NCBI GenBank assembly: GCA_903867185.1
Contig: CAIPQK010000171.1
Span: 21,428 to 85,427, forward strand
Length of the DNA stretch: 64,000 nt
DNA from: an uncultured Candidatus Nemicrothrix sp.
GTDB lineage: Bacteria; Actinomycetota; Acidimicrobiia; Acidimicrobiales; Acidimicrobilacustridaceae
Reading direction: 5' to 3'
A program made the translations under genes and the position numbers. This document shows positions 2,830 through 27,979 of the stretch, piece by piece (position 1 is the first letter of the stretch; each line of letters opens with the position of its first letter). The notes beneath the pieces are model-generated. The model ran no database searches. It saw only the letters and a program-made list of their open reading frames with translations, and was not told the origin of the DNA.

Positions 2830-3488
2830 CCTTCGACGGATTGCGACCACAACGCCTTGTCGTTGTTGTAGGAACTGGGACTGAAGTTGGAAAGACCTGG
2901 GTCGCGGCCCGCCTTCTTCGTGATCTGCGAGCCAACGGAGTCGATGTCGCTGCACGCAAACCTGTGCAATCGTTCGATCCTGACGATTCACTGACAGATG
3001 CGCATCACCTTGCTGACGCATCGGGCGAACATCCGACCGACGTCTGTCCTCGACATCGCTGGTATCCGATTGCAATGGCGCCGCCAATGGCCGCCGACGC
3101 GCTAGCTCGTCCCGCGTTCTCTGTCGAGGATCTTGCAGCGGAAATCCAGTGGCCACTGCCAGCTCCCGATGTCGCCTTTGTTGAAACCGCGGGTGGTATC
3201 CGTTCACCAATAGCAAGCAATGGCGATGCGATTTCGCTCATTGAACTTCTGCAGCCCGACATTGTGCTTCTCGTCGCTGACGCCGGGCTCGGCACCATCA
3301 ACTCCATTCTTCTTAGCCTCGAAGCAATCAATAGTGGCGCCCATGTCGCCACCCCTATTGTTGTTTTAAATCGATTCGATCCTGCCGATGATTTACATCG
3401 TCGCAATCGCGACTGGCTCACCAAGCATCTCGACGTCGACGTACTTTCAAGCGTCCCAGCAGTACTGGCAAAAATCAAAGCAACCTGA
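2826..3488 (+). CDS. bioD: dethiobiotin synthase
   Basis: VVVGTGTEVGKTWVAARL P-loop, VETAGGIRSPI, overlaps bioF by 4 nt. Confidence 0.93.
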   Translation: MTFDGLRPQRLVVVVGTGTEVGKTWVAARLLRDLRANGVDVAARKPVQSFDPDDSLTDAHHLADASGEHPTDVCPRHRWYPIAMAPPMAADALARPAFSVEDLAAEIQWPLPAPDVAFVETAGGIRSPIASNGDAISLIELLQPDIVLLVADAGLGTINSILLSLEAINSGAHVATPIVVLNRFDPADDLHRRNRDWLTKHLDVDVLSSVPAVLAKIKAT

Positions 3489-3561
3489 GAATTTCCGCCC
3501 GATCAGGTCCTAGGTTCTCGTCGCCGGTACCGTCTCATACAGAACATCGCAAGAACTACTG

Positions 3562-4440
3562 GTGAGGGGTGGGGAGATGATCAAAGAATCGAAGTCCTCG
3601 CAACCTACCGATCCAACGTTGACCCTCACCGAAGCAGCGGATCTTCTCGGCGTGCATTACATGACGGTGTATCGCTATGTCCGCACCGGTCGTCTTCCAG
3701 CAGTGAAAGCCGGGGGCGGCTGGCTCGTCAACAAATCCGCAATCGATGACTTCGCTTCGACCCCGCCGACTACCAAATCTGAGGGAAATGTCGACTGGCC
3801 GGCTCGGCTCGGTGACCGACTGTTGGCAGGGGACGAAGCCGGCGCGTGGAACGTGATCGAGGCATCGATGACCTCGGGGCTCGAACCTTCAGAGGTGTAC
3901 CTCGACGCGCTTGCTCCTGCTCTTGCCGCTATCGGAAGTGCTTGGGCGGCCGGCGAAATTTCGATCGCCGATGAACATCGCGCGACTGCAGTCACAAACC
4001 GCCTGATCGGTCGTCTCGGTCCACGTTTTCACCGCCCTGGACAAACTCGCGGAACAATCGTTCTTGGGGCAGTAGCGGGCGACCATCATGCTGTTCCGAC
4101 AGCGATCGCTTCGGACTTACTTCGCGGCAATGGATTCACTGTCTTCGACCTTGGCGCCAATTCGCCGGTTGAATCGTTCCTCGACACGGCGGGGAGCGCC
4201 GACCGATTGATCGCAGTTGGAATCACTTCAAGCGCTGCCGGCACCGATGATCAAATGATCGCCACTGTCGCCGCCATCAAGGAAGAACTTCAGTGCCCGG
4301 TCGTCATCGGTGGCCACGGGATCGGTTCCAAAGCACGCGATGCCCATCCCGACGCCATCACAGCATCAGCCACCGAGATGCTTCTTGCATTTAACGAAAT
4401 TGCAGAATTAGCAATCTCCGCTCGCACAAAAACCGCCTAA
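3562..4440 (+). CDS. HTH (excisionase-type) / cobalamin-binding transcriptional regulator, CarH-like sensor module
   Basis: N-terminal LTLTEAADLLGVHYMTVYRYVRTGRLPAVKAGGGWLVNKSAIDDF (HTH_17-like); central W-AAGEISIAD-EH (Wx9EH); GDHHAVP (DxHxx) and VVIGGHGIG of a B12-binding Rossmann domain. Confidence 0.85.
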   Translation: MRGGEMIKESKSSQPTDPTLTLTEAADLLGVHYMTVYRYVRTGRLPAVKAGGGWLVNKSAIDDFASTPPTTKSEGNVDWPARLGDRLLAGDEAGAWNVIEASMTSGLEPSEVYLDALAPALAAIGSAWAAGEISIADEHRATAVTNRLIGRLGPRFHRPGQTRGTIVLGAVAGDHHAVPTAIASDLLRGNGFTVFDLGANSPVESFLDTAGSADRLIAVGITSSAAGTDDQMIATVAAIKEELQCPVVIGGHGIGSKARDAHPDAITASATEMLLAFNEIAELAISARTKTA

Positions 4441-5432: not shown

Positions 5433-6272
5433 TCAGTTGATGGTGCTTCCTGTTTCCGCTGGAACAAACGTCACTGGGGCCTCGAACGCCGCTCGGCGGG
5501 CCACCCTTCGCAGTGCACCAAGTACTGGTCGTCCGGCGACGACGAGAAACAACGCGGTAAACGCGGCGCGGGGAATATCAAACCCGAATGACGTGGTGAC
5601 GTGGAAACCCCAAAACCGGCGAAGGTTCTCGGCCACCGAATCACCAGCGACATAGGAAACGGTCGTGTCACCTGAACTCACAAATGGCCAGAACCAAAGG
5701 TTCATGACCAATCCATAAGCGAGAGCGGCTACGGCCCCATACGTCGCAAGCAGGGCAATCTCAATGCGTCCACGTGCCGGAGGGAGACAGCCGGCGAAGA
5801 ACCCGATCCATGCCGCACCGAACATCTGGAACGGGAGCCATGGGCCGACGCCGCCTGTAATGAGTGCACTGACCAAGAGTGTCAGTGCACCAAGAACAAA
5901 ACCAAAGCCCCGACCAAATACTCGGCCTGCCGGGATAAGGAGGAAGAACACCGGCTCGAAGCCCGCCACTCCTCCACTTGGGAGTCGCAACACCGCCCCA
6001 CTCGCGGCGAGCACACCGAGCAGCGCTACCGATTTTGCGTCGAGAGAGCCATCGGCCAACTCGGCAAGTATCACTCCGATCAAAAGCGGAATGAGGATCA
6101 CAAAAATCCAAGGAGCGTCGGCGCTATGTGAAGCATCAAGCGCAGAGTTTGCGGAGGCGAAGAGGGGCCAAGCAAAAGCGACGACACCCAGAGCGAACGC
6201 GGCAATGAGCAATGCCCACGATGTCGGCCCTAAACGAACTACGTCGATCCGATGCAGTCCGGATCGTTTCAT
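5433..6272 (-). CDS. ECF transporter S component (substrate-binding membrane subunit), CbrT-like
   Basis: Multi-TM protein with GFGFVLGALTLLVSALITGGVGPWLPFQMFGAAWIGFFAG; overlaps the EcfA gene; downstream of EcfT. Confidence 0.8.
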   Translation of the reverse strand: MKRSGLHRIDVVRLGPTSWALLIAAFALGVVAFAWPLFASANSALDASHSADAPWIFVILIPLLIGVILAELADGSLDAKSVALLGVLAASGAVLRLPSGGVAGFEPVFFLLIPAGRVFGRGFGFVLGALTLLVSALITGGVGPWLPFQMFGAAWIGFFAGCLPPARGRIEIALLATYGAVAALAYGLVMNLWFWPFVSSGDTTVSYVAGDSVAENLRRFWGFHVTTSFGFDIPRAAFTALFLVVAGRPVLGALRRVARRAAFEAPVTFVPAETGSTIN

Positions 6273-7903
6273 GAGAAGGGAAGATCCCCAACCGAGGCAA
6301 GAGCGAGTTCGACTTCGTGCACTGTCAGCAGCGGTAACGGAGCAAGAACTTTCGCTACTTGCGGCGCAAACACTGGTGAATGGATCACAACATCACGAGC
6401 AGGACCATCGGACACGACCTCGCCTTCGGCAAGCACTACACATCGGTCGGCGACCGCTGCAACCACTTCGACATCGTGCGTCGCGATAACGACTGCGTGA
6501 CCTTTAACGGCCAATTGACTGAGAACCGCAACCAGTCGTTGCTTCGCTCCGTAATCAAGTCCTCGCGTCGGTTCGTCAAGCAGCAATAACGGCGGCTCTG
6601 ACGCCAAAACAATTGAGAGAGCCAGCCCTAGACGTTGCCCCTCTGAAAGATCACGGGGATGAGCAGTCGCCTTGATGTCTGGAACAATTTGATCAAGTAC
6701 CGAACGTGTCGTTCCAGCGGTGAGGCCCGCGTCGCGATCAGACGCACTGCATTCGGCGGCAACCGTGTCGTGATACAGCAAGACACCACTATCTTGCGGA
6801 ACCAACCCAGCGACACGAACGACGTCATGAGCCGAAAGCCGGTGCGGCTCCGCGCCCATCACTCGCACCGTGCCCGAAGCGGGTTCGCGCAGCCCAACCA
6901 GATGATTCAGCAAAGTGGACTTTCCTGCGCCGTTGCGACCCATCAGCGCAACAACCTCTCCAGCCCGGAACTGCAGTTCGATGCCGCGCAGTGCAGTGAC
7001 TGGCCCATATGAAGCTTGAAGCCCGTCGGTTATCGCAACAACCTCACCGACCACGCGCGGGGTTCGTCGAAACGCAGACAGTTCAACTTCGGCGAGTCGC
7101 TCACGCAACGGGCCCGCAAGACGGCGGGCATCTCGCACCGAAAGAGGAAGTGGCGACCAACCAGCTAAACGACCGAGTTCGACTACCGGTGGCGCAACTG
7201 ATGATTGACCAAAAACTTCGGCAGGCGTACCCACGATGACAGGGCGGCCATCGCCAGGAACCATCACGATCCGATCGGCATACTGAACGACTCGTTCGAG
7301 CCGATGCTCCGCGATAAGCACCGTGATTCCGAGGTCATGGACCAAACGAGTGAGCGCGGCGAGCACCTCCTCGGCTGCTGCTGGGTCGAGGGCAGACGTT
7401 GGTTCATCGAGAACGAGTACTCGCGGACCAGCCGTGAGTACCGCTCCAATCGCTACTCGTTGCTGCTGTCCACCCGAAAGTGATGCCAAAGGCCGGTATC
7501 GAATTTCGTGCAGACCAAGTAGATCGAGAATGTCTTCAACGCGACGGCGCATGACCTCAGGCGCAACACCGAGGTTTTCCATTGCATAGGCCAGTTCGTC
7601 TTCGACGTAATCGGTGACGAATCCAGCGGCCGGATCTTGACCGACGACTCCAACGACGTCGGCGAGATCTCGAGGCGGAAGATCAGCCGTGCTCTTCCCG
7701 TCAATGACGACTGATCCAGCGAGCACGCCACCAGAAAAGCGCGGAACTAAACCGTTGACGGCACGCAACAAGGTGGACTTCCCGGAACCGGTGACGCCAA
7801 CAACAAGACACAACTCGCCTTCGGGAACTTCGAAAGAGACATCCACCAACGTCGGAGCGTCGGCTTCGGGATAGGTGATCGTCACATGTTCAAACCGAAT
7901 CAT
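6269..7903 (-). CDS. ECF transporter ATPase, two fused ABC domains
   Basis: Two Walker A motifs (GVTGSGKST, GRNGAGKST), two signature/Walker B sets (LSGGQQQRVAIGAV...LVLDEPT; LSEGQRLGLALSIV...LLLDEPT); ATG at 7903 overlaps EcfT stop. Confidence 0.9.
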   Translation of the reverse strand: MIRFEHVTITYPEADAPTLVDVSFEVPEGELCLVVGVTGSGKSTLLRAVNGLVPRFSGGVLAGSVVIDGKSTADLPPRDLADVVGVVGQDPAAGFVTDYVEDELAYAMENLGVAPEVMRRRVEDILDLLGLHEIRYRPLASLSGGQQQRVAIGAVLTAGPRVLVLDEPTSALDPAAAEEVLAALTRLVHDLGITVLIAEHRLERVVQYADRIVMVPGDGRPVIVGTPAEVFGQSSVAPPVVELGRLAGWSPLPLSVRDARRLAGPLRERLAEVELSAFRRTPRVVGEVVAITDGLQASYGPVTALRGIELQFRAGEVVALMGRNGAGKSTLLNHLVGLREPASGTVRVMGAEPHRLSAHDVVRVAGLVPQDSGVLLYHDTVAAECSASDRDAGLTAGTTRSVLDQIVPDIKATAHPRDLSEGQRLGLALSIVLASEPPLLLLDEPTRGLDYGAKQRLVAVLSQLAVKGHAVVIATHDVEVVAAVADRCVVLAEGEVVSDGPARDVVIHSPVFAPQVAKVLAPLPLLTVHEVELALASVGDLPFS

Positions 7904-9000
7904 GCGGCGACCGCCATCGGTGTTGACAGCGTTGCGAGTGTCGGGGGCGTTGGAGCGAACCATGCCGGAAGCGTCGCAACCAGAAGGCCGACGACCGCAA
8001 CTATTGGAACCGCAGGCACCTCGAGCGGGTTCGTCGACGGAGTGAGCGCGTCGCCCATTCTCCCTGCCAGAACAAACGATGCAAGAGCTATCAGGCCAGC
8101 GAGCGAAACGATCCATTCCGGTTTCACCCACGGATCAGGTCGATAGCGAGTCCGCTCGGCGGAACGACCGCTAGCGGCGAGAGAACCCACCAAAGCGACC
8201 ACCCCTAGAGCGAGCGCGGGGATCCGGAACATCGTGGGTGCCCCTGGGTCAAGGAGTCCATACGAGCCAATCGCAATGGCGACGAGGCCCACCAGAACCA
8301 AACCAACCGAACGACGACGCTGGGAGACCGACGCTCCACCTCGTCGGCCGTAACCACGACTGTCCATTGACGCAGCGAGAGCAACAGCCCGATCGAGCGC
8401 GCCTTCAAGTACCGGCAAGGCTGACGCCGACCATGCTCGAAATCCACGATCGGAACGTCCACGAAGGCGACGCGCTTCACGAACTTGGCGAGATGCGACA
8501 ATTGCCTGCGGCGCAAATGTAAATGCCACTGTCACCGCTACCCCTGCTTCATAAAGCACTGTGGGAAGGGCTCGCAGCATTCGATAGGGACTGCATAACG
8601 AGGTCGCTGCCCCGAAACAGGCCAACACCGTCGCAAGCCGAAGTCCTTGGTAGAACGCCGCCATCAATGATTCGATCGTGACTGGTCCACCCAGACTCAC
8701 TCCAGCTGCCCAGGACGGAAGGGTGACCTCGGGGATGGAAAAGAGTGTCGTGCCAGGAACTCGAACCCCGAAAAGGATCTGGAACACAAGTCGGACAGCA
8801 ATCACGATGAGTCCGAGTCGCAAGAAACTTGCGAATGATCGCGACCACGGAACATCGGTTCGACGGGAAACCACAACCCATCCGGTGACAGCAATGATGA
8901 GGCAGAGCAACACCGGATTCGTCGTGCGCAATGCGCATGCAGCGAGTGCCACCGCCCACAACCACCATGCTCCCGGATGCAGCAGTCGCGGCGCAGTCAT
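7900..9000 (-). CDS. ECF transporter transmembrane T component
   Basis: Multi-TM; AxxSMDSRGYGRR and VREARRLRGRSDRGFRAW motifs typical of CbiQ/EcfT coupling helices. Confidence 0.87.
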   Translation of the reverse strand: MTAPRLLHPGAWWLWAVALAACALRTTNPVLLCLIIAVTGWVVVSRRTDVPWSRSFASFLRLGLIVIAVRLVFQILFGVRVPGTTLFSIPEVTLPSWAAGVSLGGPVTIESLMAAFYQGLRLATVLACFGAATSLCSPYRMLRALPTVLYEAGVAVTVAFTFAPQAIVASRQVREARRLRGRSDRGFRAWSASALPVLEGALDRAVALAASMDSRGYGRRGGASVSQRRRSVGLVLVGLVAIAIGSYGLLDPGAPTMFRIPALALGVVALVGSLAASGRSAERTRYRPDPWVKPEWIVSLAGLIALASFVLAGRMGDALTPSTNPLEVPAVPIVAVVGLLVATLPAWFAPTPPTLATLSTPMAVAA

Positions 9001-9863
9001 CGAGACCTACGAGTCTGCACCCACGCGCCGCTCGCCATCATGGCGATGAGAACAAACACCGCAGCAATAGCGAACCACCGACCGGTGGTTGAGTCATCCG
9101 CACGTGATGACGCAAGTGCAATACCTTCCACGGCGACCGGTTCAAGCGTTGTCGTCGCCATCGAAACGACATCGGGTGAACCGGAAGTTGGTTCAGGAGC
9201 AACATCGATCGTTGTCGAAGAGCTCAACGACGATGCGTTTCCACTCGCTACTACTGGCTGTTCGACAACAACTGGGGCGTTGGGAGCGAGCGCTGGAACA
9301 AGCGCCGGAAAGAGTGACTGTGATGGCGCGATCCGCGGCGGCGGATCCTGCGCAGAACCTTTTCCTCCACGGACGTAACGCCAGCCCTCGATGTCACCAT
9401 CGGAAAGTCGTCGCGTGAATGGGTTGATATTGCCGTAGGCCCAACTTCCTGATGGAGCGCTGAAATATCCCCAATAGTCAAAGCCGCCGGCATTGTGGTC
9501 GCCGCATCCAGTTGCGGGCATCCCATCAATCGCACAGAGCAAACCACTCGACCCATAACGAGCAGAACCAGTTCCGAGTTCTGCACTGCGTCGGGCCAAT
9601 AACTGCGAACCCGTGGTCCCCGTCGGGACAACAAGGCAGGTCGCCGAAGATCCACCGCCGAAATCGACAGCATCAACAACAATCACGACACGGATTTCTC
9701 CGTCCGGAACTGGACCAGAGCACGACGAAGCCTCGGCGCGCCCGCTCGTCGTCACAATCACACCCGTGAGTGCGATCGCAGCCACACAACACACAGCCAT
9801 CGCTCGACACGAGCGTGACAATCGTGCACGCAGCATTGCGGAGGAGGTACGGCTGATGCTCAC
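8997..9863 (-). CDS. Secreted, C-terminally membrane-anchored protein with SCO2322/DUF4430 (transcobalamin-beta-like) domain
   Basis: Sec-like signal peptide, IRVVIVVDAVDFGGGSSATCLVVPTGTTGSQLLARR...GLLCAIDGMPATGC...FDYWGYFSAPSGSWAYGNINPFTRRLSDGDIEGWRYV, low-complexity spacer, C-terminal TM then RRSR; GTG start. Confidence 0.72.
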   Translation of the reverse strand: MSISRTSSAMLRARLSRSCRAMAVCCVAAIALTGVIVTTSGRAEASSCSGPVPDGEIRVVIVVDAVDFGGGSSATCLVVPTGTTGSQLLARRSAELGTGSARYGSSGLLCAIDGMPATGCGDHNAGGFDYWGYFSAPSGSWAYGNINPFTRRLSDGDIEGWRYVRGGKGSAQDPPPRIAPSQSLFPALVPALAPNAPVVVEQPVVASGNASSLSSSTTIDVAPEPTSGSPDVVSMATTTLEPVAVEGIALASSRADDSTTGRWFAIAAVFVLIAMMASGAWVQTRRSR

Positions 9864-10029
9864 GGGGTGCGGTTACTCGGTTCTTTTCTGGTCTGATTTC
9901 AGGTCTTCCACAGGCGCCTACGTGTACCGGTCTATGGGTGCGAGACCCGACCGGACCACGGACCAAGGCCGCCGACCGAACCGAGCCCCACCTCCCGTAA
10001 TCCGACGACGGTCTGTGATGGAGCAATCC

Positions 10030-10160
10030 CCTCGAAGCAGGCAGTCCGGCTCGTGGCCGCCCGGAGAATCTCCCCAGAGGCCACCTACGGTTGCGGGTCA
10101 GCGCCGGAATCAGACCGGCTTCCCCTGCTGCGGTGGGTCAAGTTGTGGTGACACCCCACC
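10030..10160 (-). promoter_or_regulatory. Cobalamin (adenosylcobalamin) riboswitch in the 5' leader of the ECF operon
   Basis: Minus strand reads CAGCAGGGGAAGCCGGTCTGATTCCGGCGCTGACCCGCAACCGTAGGTGGCC...GGCCACGAGCCGGACTGCCTGCTTCGAGG, matching the GGGAA-CCGGT-AATCCGG-GCTGACCCGCAACCGT core and GAGCCGGANTGCC B12 box of actinobacterial cobalamin riboswitches; boundaries approximate. Confidence 0.9.
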
Positions 10161-10242
10161 ACATGGGGTGGTCCCCGTCAATCACCGAAAGCGATACTCG
10201 TCCGACCGGCGGTTTCGCGCCCCCGAGTCCTATCCTCAACTC

Positions 10243-26434: not shown

Positions 26435-27979
26435 TCAAAGCGGACAGACTGCGACATCGCGGCGCCACACGCTCAAGCCGTCGACAACTCGGTCGACGTT
26501 GTAGCAACGGTCAAGCCATTCCCCGACAGGAAACGACTGAGGCCCGTACATTGCCCAGTCCGTATCGGGACGGGCTGCATCGATAACGACGACAGGCGGA
26601 TGCGCAGCGACGTCTTCGAAGAACATGTTCCAACGAGTTCGGAATGGTTCTGCACCTATCACGCTCTCGCTAAGCGGATGATCTCGACTGGCCCAATTCC
26701 CGGTGAGATAGCCATCGTGTAAAAAAATGCCCGTCGGGAGTCGATCAGCGGCGACGTAAACGTCGGGAAGCGCTCCCCAAACCAGGATTCGTTGATCGGC
26801 ATCAGTCGTGCTCTGCACATATCGACCAAGTGCAGTGAAGTTCGTGAGGTCGGGACGATGGATCACTGCCAACGCCACCATCACAACAAGAAGTCCAACC
26901 GTTATCGCAGTCAGTGTTTGCCAAACACGCCGTCCGGCGATGACAAGCGCGCAACCCGTGAGAACAGCTAATGGCGGGACCACCTGTTGGTAGTAATGGC
27001 CAAAGAATCGCAAACCGATTGGAATGACCAGTGCCGAAACGACAAGCCATACGAGCACTGTCGGATCTGCACGGAAGCGTCGCGCAACTGCGGCCCACAC
27101 CCCATAGAACAGCGGAAGATGTAAGACAACAAAAGAAAGTGTGAGAGCAGCTCCAATCGCTGTCGCCCTACCGATTGAAACTCCACCGCTGATGTAGTCG
27201 CTGTTGTCGGTCCAGACCCATCGGATCATTGTTGAACGGCCGAAGAACACAAAGATCGGAAGCGCAGCTGCTACAGCTCCAAACGCTGTCGCGCCAATCG
27301 TCAGACTCTTATCATTCGCCCGACGCACCGCCTCAAAAAGCACCACGATGCCGACCACGATGTATGGCTGTTTGCAATTGGCAGCGAGAACAACACATGA
27401 GCCGGCGAGCGCGAACCAAAGCGCAGGGGTTCGCTTCGACTCTCGAGCCACAACAACACAAAGGACGGCAGCTGAAGCGGGCAAGAGCCCCCACAATTCG
27501 AAATTTGCTGCCTGCGCATCCGGCGGCAAGAACAACGCCGTTCCGATAATGGCCAAGACCCCGGCGAATAGCGCGGCACGACGAGACGTCGAGAGTCGTC
27601 GAACAAGTTCAGCGACAACCACACCATTAAGGAAGATCAACAACGCCAGAACAATCCGAACGGCGCGCATGTCGACGCTCCATTCGCGAATGAGCGAATA
27701 CATCACCGGGGCCACCGGGGGTTTGCGGTCAATAACGTCGACATAGAGCCGACCGCCATTGCGGAGTACGTCACCGGTGACAGCCAGATACGACTCGTCG
27801 CGGTCAAACATTCCGTTAGAGAGAATTCCAGGTGCACGCGAAACAACGGTTGCTAGGCCGAGGACACTCACCATCCACGCGCCCCACGACATACGCGAGC
27901 GAACAGGCTCAATGGCCTCGCTACATCGACGAGCGACCTTCGCCCATCGCTGCTTGGTCAGATCGACTGTGGTGGTCAC
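26435..27979 (-). CDS. Multi-TM ArnT/PMT-like (GT39-type) glycosyltransferase
   Basis: Many TM helices, early acidic loop MFDRDESYLAVTGDVLRNGGRLYVDVIDRKPP; GTG start at 27979. Confidence 0.7.
   Translation of the reverse strand: MTTTVDLTKQRWAKVARRCSEAIEPVRSRMSWGAWMVSVLGLATVVSRAPGILSNGMFDRDESYLAVTGDVLRNGGRLYVDVIDRKPPVAPVMYSLIREWSVDMRAVRIVLALLIFLNGVVVAELVRRLSTSRRAALFAGVLAIIGTALFLPPDAQAANFELWGLLPASAAVLCVVVARESKRTPALWFALAGSCVVLAANCKQPYIVVGIVVLFEAVRRANDKSLTIGATAFGAVAAALPIFVFFGRSTMIRWVWTDNSDYISGGVSIGRATAIGAALTLSFVVLHLPLFYGVWAAVARRFRADPTVLVWLVVSALVIPIGLRFFGHYYQQVVPPLAVLTGCALVIAGRRVWQTLTAITVGLLVVMVALAVIHRPDLTNFTALGRYVQSTTDADQRILVWGALPDVYVAADRLPTGIFLHDGYLTGNWASRDHPLSESVIGAEPFRTRWNMFFEDVAAHPPVVVIDAARPDTDWAMYGPQSFPVGEWLDRCYNVDRVVDGLSVWRRDVAVCPL

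Follow-up and report, generated by a model that had tools for sequence, protein, structure and literature searches.

What does a surface protein contribute when its gene stands between a cobalamin riboswitch and the genes of an ECF importer? The question is raised by a locus in a 64,000-nucleotide stretch of DNA (the window) from an uncultured Candidatus Nemicrothrix sp., in which a first-pass annotation had proposed that such a protein, here called beta, binds corrinoids and hands them to the importer. In fresh water and in soil, the scavenging of B12 shapes communities of auxotrophs.

The genome itself was searched for its B12 physiology. CbiC, the sole corrin-ring gene searched for, was not found in the genome, which is rated 100% complete, and no FecCD-type permease scored above cut-off in it. 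Three B12-binding proteins are encoded. As CbiC is absent yet B12-binding proteins are present, the organism probably needs B12 and must import it, and the ECF system is probably its evident B12 importer. One of the three proteins lies in the window about 1 kb from the EcfS gene (3562-4440, plus strand) and combines HTH_17, B12-binding_2 and B12-binding domains; judging from these it may be a CarH-like B12-dependent regulator, possibly a local B12/light sensor.

The riboswitch and the ECF operon

Beta had been described as the first gene after a B12 riboswitch, in an operon with ECF genes, and this was confirmed (Table 1). The aptamer upstream of the operon scores 36.3 bits, above the RF00174 gathering score of 31.5, and lies about 155 nt from the beta start codon. 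A terminator-like site was sought in the leader (9850-10019) and none was found, while the predicted fold of the same leader pairs the GUG start region (z -2.09). Together these two observations suggest that the riboswitch acts by translational control.

Table 1 Features of the beta operon (positions in the window)
Feature	Position	Strand	Basis or remarks
Cobalamin riboswitch aptamer	10019..10181	(-)	Rfam RF00174, model 1-189 complete
Beta protein, transcobalamin-beta/DUF4430-like (SCO2322-like) surface protein	8997..9863	(-)	288 aa, GTG start
Secreted beta-like domain, residues ~54-172	9348..9704	(-)	Alignment and hhalign to DUF4430
C-terminal TM anchor then TRRSR tail, residues ~261-284	9012..9083	(-)	Hydropathy
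EcfT, CbiQ-like transmembrane component	7900..9000	(-)	Pfam CbiQ, 8.8e-07
EcfA, two fused ECF ATPase domains	6269..7963	(-)	TIGR04521/TIGR04520, two stretches
EcfS-position membrane protein, presumed substrate component	5433..6272	(-)	Position and conservation only

The beta, EcfT, EcfA and EcfS frames overlap or abut, so that EcfT, an EcfA pair and EcfS, the last assigned by position and conservation, are encoded together. EcfA matches ECF ATPases at 2.6e-90 (NCBIfam); its ORF extends to 8131, and the protein has 564 aa if it starts as do its close relatives in L017-L019 (564 aa). The EcfS-position protein has no Pfam, NCBIfam or PDB match, CbrT structures included. It carries an invariant His49 and the motif GPWLPFQM.

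A scan of the phylum with the SCO2322 profile gave matches in 54 of 397 actinobacterial genomes. Forty neighbourhoods picked by their beta match alone, together with the window, made up a set of 41 loci from 40 actinobacterial genomes, and operon profiles were built from the window's four proteins. Profile searches found the EcfT family in 49 loci and the EcfS-position family in 46. EcfT, EcfA and EcfS adjoin beta in 40 of the 41 loci (in L070 the ECF genes run divergently, and contig ends truncate two loci). The gene order is near-strict, with beta directly before EcfT-EcfA-EcfS in nearly all of them. A genome-wide RF00174 search placed a cobalamin riboswitch on the same strand at the first alpha (toroid, see below) or beta domain in 35/41 loci, several of these matches scoring below gathering. 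The riboswitch lies 30-232 nt upstream of the domain, apart from one overlap (-80) in L082, which is due to a predicted ORF extension.

In L092 (G231, 5989-8473) a beta-alpha-beta cluster follows a cobalamin riboswitch and no ECF genes were found nearby. A membrane protein of NicO/HupE appearance is encoded upstream of this cluster. In L082 (G087) a stand-alone beta protein with a lipoprotein-like N-terminus (3155-3664) lies directly behind a cobalamin riboswitch of its own and adjoins a complete operon on the opposite strand. The genomic tie of beta to B12 uptake is far stronger than could be seen from the sequence of the window alone.

The beta protein and its domain

The ORF contains the peptides quoted in the first-pass annotation, as well as the four cysteines, the spacer and the C-terminal TM anchor that it had listed. 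A signal-like N-terminus leads into a domain some 120 residues long, which a spacer rich in Ser, Thr, Pro and Ala connects to the C-terminal TM segment. Kyte-Doolittle maxima over 19 residues are 2.26 for the N-terminal and 2.29 for the C-terminal segment, and a strongly hydrophobic C-terminal segment is kept in 46 of 56 beta-family ORFs. The tethered surface location that had been proposed is supported. The mature protein has cysteines at C48, C76, C110 and C120, the last three within the beta domain, which also bears the motif YWGYF...W.YG...DGDIEGWRY. An alignment of 22 family sequences shows no variation at C110 and C120 and at least 90% conservation of C76, whereas C48 is confined to the closer relatives.

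MAGs of freshwater Acidimicrobiia contain close relatives (58-87% identity) that retain both the reading frame and the operon, so that the ORF is not a chance one. Two public MAG records that carry the Acidimicrobiia operon at about 86% identity (L015 and L016) are titled Bifidobacterium breve, labels that look wrong.

The resemblance to SCO2322/DUF4430 proteins that had been noted was borne out in part. The beta protein matches the SCO2322 family (NCBIfam NF040672) with E = 2.4e-16, but its 60.4 bits are below the 85-bit cut-off and the match consists of two stretches in swapped order. Pfam DUF4430 (PF14478) gave no direct match to the protein with E up to 1, and a search of the genome was likewise negative. 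A profile of 43 beta domains was then aligned by hhalign with one of 28 DUF4430 domains, both sets taken from actinobacterial genomes. The score was 42.4 (E 1.8e-06 for one comparison, probability 89.8%) over 104 aligned columns, which span the first strand, the helix at TGSQLL, the C-x-I-D-G strand and the DGD-x-x-x-W end. Sixty column-shuffled DUF4430 controls reached 18.0 at best (mean 11.5) and the reversed profile 9.7; the EcfT, EcfA, EcfS and alpha profiles, used as further controls, scored 11.7-19.8. DUF4430 corresponds to the C-terminal region of transcobalamins (PMC4350170). Homology of the predicted beta domain to DUF4430 and the transcobalamin beta domain is thus supported at the level of profiles.

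The split match below cut-off is explained by the Streptomyces-type proteins (L053-L063 and L023), whose domain is circularly permuted relative to the DUF4430-like order, its halves having changed places. In their natural order they give two separate matches (model 111-174, then 34-103), the better of which scores 44-49 bits, whereas after rotation they give a single match of 70-80 bits.

Structure prediction and structural databases added little. AlphaFold gave pLDDT 42.8 for the beta domain with nine close relatives, and 49.4 when two pieces of the permuted L023 homologue were added, both values from shallow alignments and too low for the models to be interpreted. Foldseek of the second model against the PDB found nothing with E < 0.001, and the beta sequence had no meaningful match in the PDB.

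The alpha toroid and its location

In 33 of the 41 loci a gene for a secreted toroid protein (alpha) lies beside beta on the same strand. All ten alpha examples tested match SCO2321 (NF053823; E 2.4e-23 to 6.2e-179), and the same ten show similarity to squalene-cyclase/prenyltransferase toroids, three of them passing Pfam cut-offs. Against structures of squalene-hopene cyclases the alpha family profile reaches 4.5e-28. Pfam Cobalamin_bind (PF01122) was matched only by the alpha of L067, at E 0.0058, which is below cut-off. From these profile matches the predicted toroid fold is well supported; a relation to the transcobalamin alpha domain in particular is not, the likeness to Cobalamin_bind being weak.

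Many of the related alphas are anchored by a TM segment, an LPXTG-like motif or cell-wall repeats. Fused forms occur in three genomes (L067, L068 and L069): there the toroid and one or two beta domains share a chain with CWB2 cell-wall repeats, and alpha precedes beta as it does in transcobalamin. Transcobalamin holds B12 between its two domains. As an alpha-like partner is here encoded by a separate gene, it is unlikely that a lone corrinoid-binding beta is the whole device.

In the genus of the window and in the closest members of its family, no alpha lies beside beta. The window's own genome does contain one SCO2321-like gene, on a separate contig (C101:55656-56816, minus strand). Only two RF00174 matches were found in this genome, one in the window and the other at C101:56900-57076, 84 nt before the alpha gene. 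The latter scores 28.9 bits as RF00174, below gathering, and 45.1 bits (E 4.5e-07; gathering 50) as RF01482. The encoded alpha has a signal peptide and no evident C-terminal anchor; it gave no direct match to Pfam DUF4430 or Cobalamin_bind, and PF01122 found nothing in the genome at E up to 10.

The same pattern recurs in four relatives (G023, G083, G035 and G047), in which an alpha lies 110-160 nt behind a further riboswitch. A coincidence of this kind has a probability of about 1e-4 in any one genome; the cases are phylogenetically related and hence not fully independent. In G190 an extra alpha follows a riboswitch at a distance of 720 nt, and in G145 the alpha match stops at a contig edge. 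In G256 beta and the ECF genes are present and a genome search found no alpha. Misbinning of contig C101 was considered as the source of the alpha gene and is unlikely, the arrangement being repeated in G023, G083, G035 and G047. Two of the alpha matches, G023:C13:69628-70731 and G047:C78:38302-39318, contain one in-frame TGA each, which may be a sequence error, a pseudogene or an overrun of the match.

A proposed split capture module and its alternatives

Beta is probably one of two proteins that together form a transcobalamin-like module for corrinoid capture, in the service of an ECF importer specific for B12; it would be the beta half. What leads to this reading was computed: homology of beta to DUF4430, operon conservation, riboswitch placement, co-occurrence of alpha at the frequencies given above and the absence of CbiC. 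To these are added the alpha-beta fusions, the own-genome alpha behind a second riboswitch with four relatives alike, the lack of a FecCD permease above cut-off and the three B12-binding proteins. Counted against it are the low-pLDDT models, the missing direct matches to Pfam DUF4430 and Cobalamin_bind, G256 without alpha and L092 without ECF genes. A further count is that the S-component of ECF-CbrT, the characterised ECF cobalamin importer of Lactobacillus delbrueckii, binds B12 alone with nanomolar affinity (PMC5997447).

In the mechanism that we infer, the anchored beta and the secreted, SCO2321-like alpha/alpha-toroid would close around cobalamin outside the membrane. In contact with each other they would pass the corrinoid to EcfS at the cell surface, and EcfT and EcfA would power uptake of B12 as the presumed cargo. 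When B12 is plentiful the riboswitches would shut off both transcription units, that of the beta operon and that of the alpha on C101. More speculatively, the receptor might be assembled in trans: the freely secreted toroid could perhaps act as a releasable cobalamin scavenger, its cargo being returned to the tethered beta and hence to the ECF importer, with the two riboswitches co-regulating the parts.

The near-strict order beta-EcfT-EcfA-EcfS would also suit an accessory structural or docking subunit, comparable to CbiN or NikK/NikL, that stabilises or orients EcfS and binds no corrinoid, and metal ECF importers with additional subunits are known (PMC2667541). This is nevertheless unlikely, as beta is homologous to a domain of animal cobalamin carriers, is fused elsewhere to alpha and cell-wall repeats, stands alone behind its own riboswitch in G087 and occurs in L092 without ECF genes. 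It is quite improbable that beta binds corrinoid alone and that the toroid, with no need to contact beta, is an enzyme or some other surface protein under B12 regulation. G256, with no detected alpha, and the cyclases, which are the closest solved relatives of alpha, would fit that proposal, but alpha adjoins beta in most loci, the two are fused in three genomes and in five a separate alpha follows a second cobalamin riboswitch.

The captured ligand might instead be a corrinoid precursor, a cobalt complex or a B12-protein complex, the riboswitch merely reflecting the cobalt/B12 economy. Cobalt importers too can follow B12 riboswitches (PMC2667541), and EcfS is not recognisably related to CbrT. 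A genome without CbiC, however, would have little use for cobalt imported to make corrins, and the anatomy of alpha and beta speaks for corrinoids. This alternative is very improbable.

The split capture module may be compared with known systems. The animal carriers transcobalamin, intrinsic factor and haptocorrin are likewise secreted and consist of an alpha/alpha-toroid and a DUF4430-like beta domain. In contrast to these single chains, the window protein comprises beta only and alpha is encoded on C101; beta is membrane-anchored and the parts are associated with riboswitches and an ECF importer, all of this as predicted from sequence. Streptomyces SCO2322 and SCO2321 share the operon position, the beta domain and the toroid neighbour, and differ by the permuted beta domain. 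ECF-CbrT shares the importer type and the presumed ligand, cobalamin or cobinamide; unlike it, the system described here has a dedicated EcfT, a fused EcfA and putative surface capture proteins encoded together, and its EcfS family matches no PDB entry, CbrT included.

No report on SCO2321/SCO2322 or on the split arrangement was found in the open-access literature searched. If the split module is correct, SCO2321 and SCO2322, two families widespread among Actinobacteria and named by locus tag only, would gain a function, and the architecture of animal transcobalamin would have a split bacterial counterpart tied to ECF import. It would also run counter, in one concrete case, to the view that ECF importers do without an extracellular capture protein.

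Annotation has already anticipated a link between DUF4430-type domains and ECF importers of cobalamin. A proteomic study of Lactobacillales gives the label 'additional lipoprotein component of putative cobalamin ECF transporter' and, in a separate place, a DUF4430 protein (PMC9963975). If the two entries are one protein, it would share with beta an extracellular domain related to DUF4430 and an assignment to an ECF importer of cobalamin. It would differ in being a Firmicutes protein annotated as lipid-anchored, with no toroid partner reported in that study, and beta has no direct Pfam DUF4430 match. In a Streptomyces-type genome, G297, a DUF4430 match (C8:26603-26728 and 27247-27369) lies just behind a weak cobalamin riboswitch, which speaks independently for a B12-related function of DUF4430.
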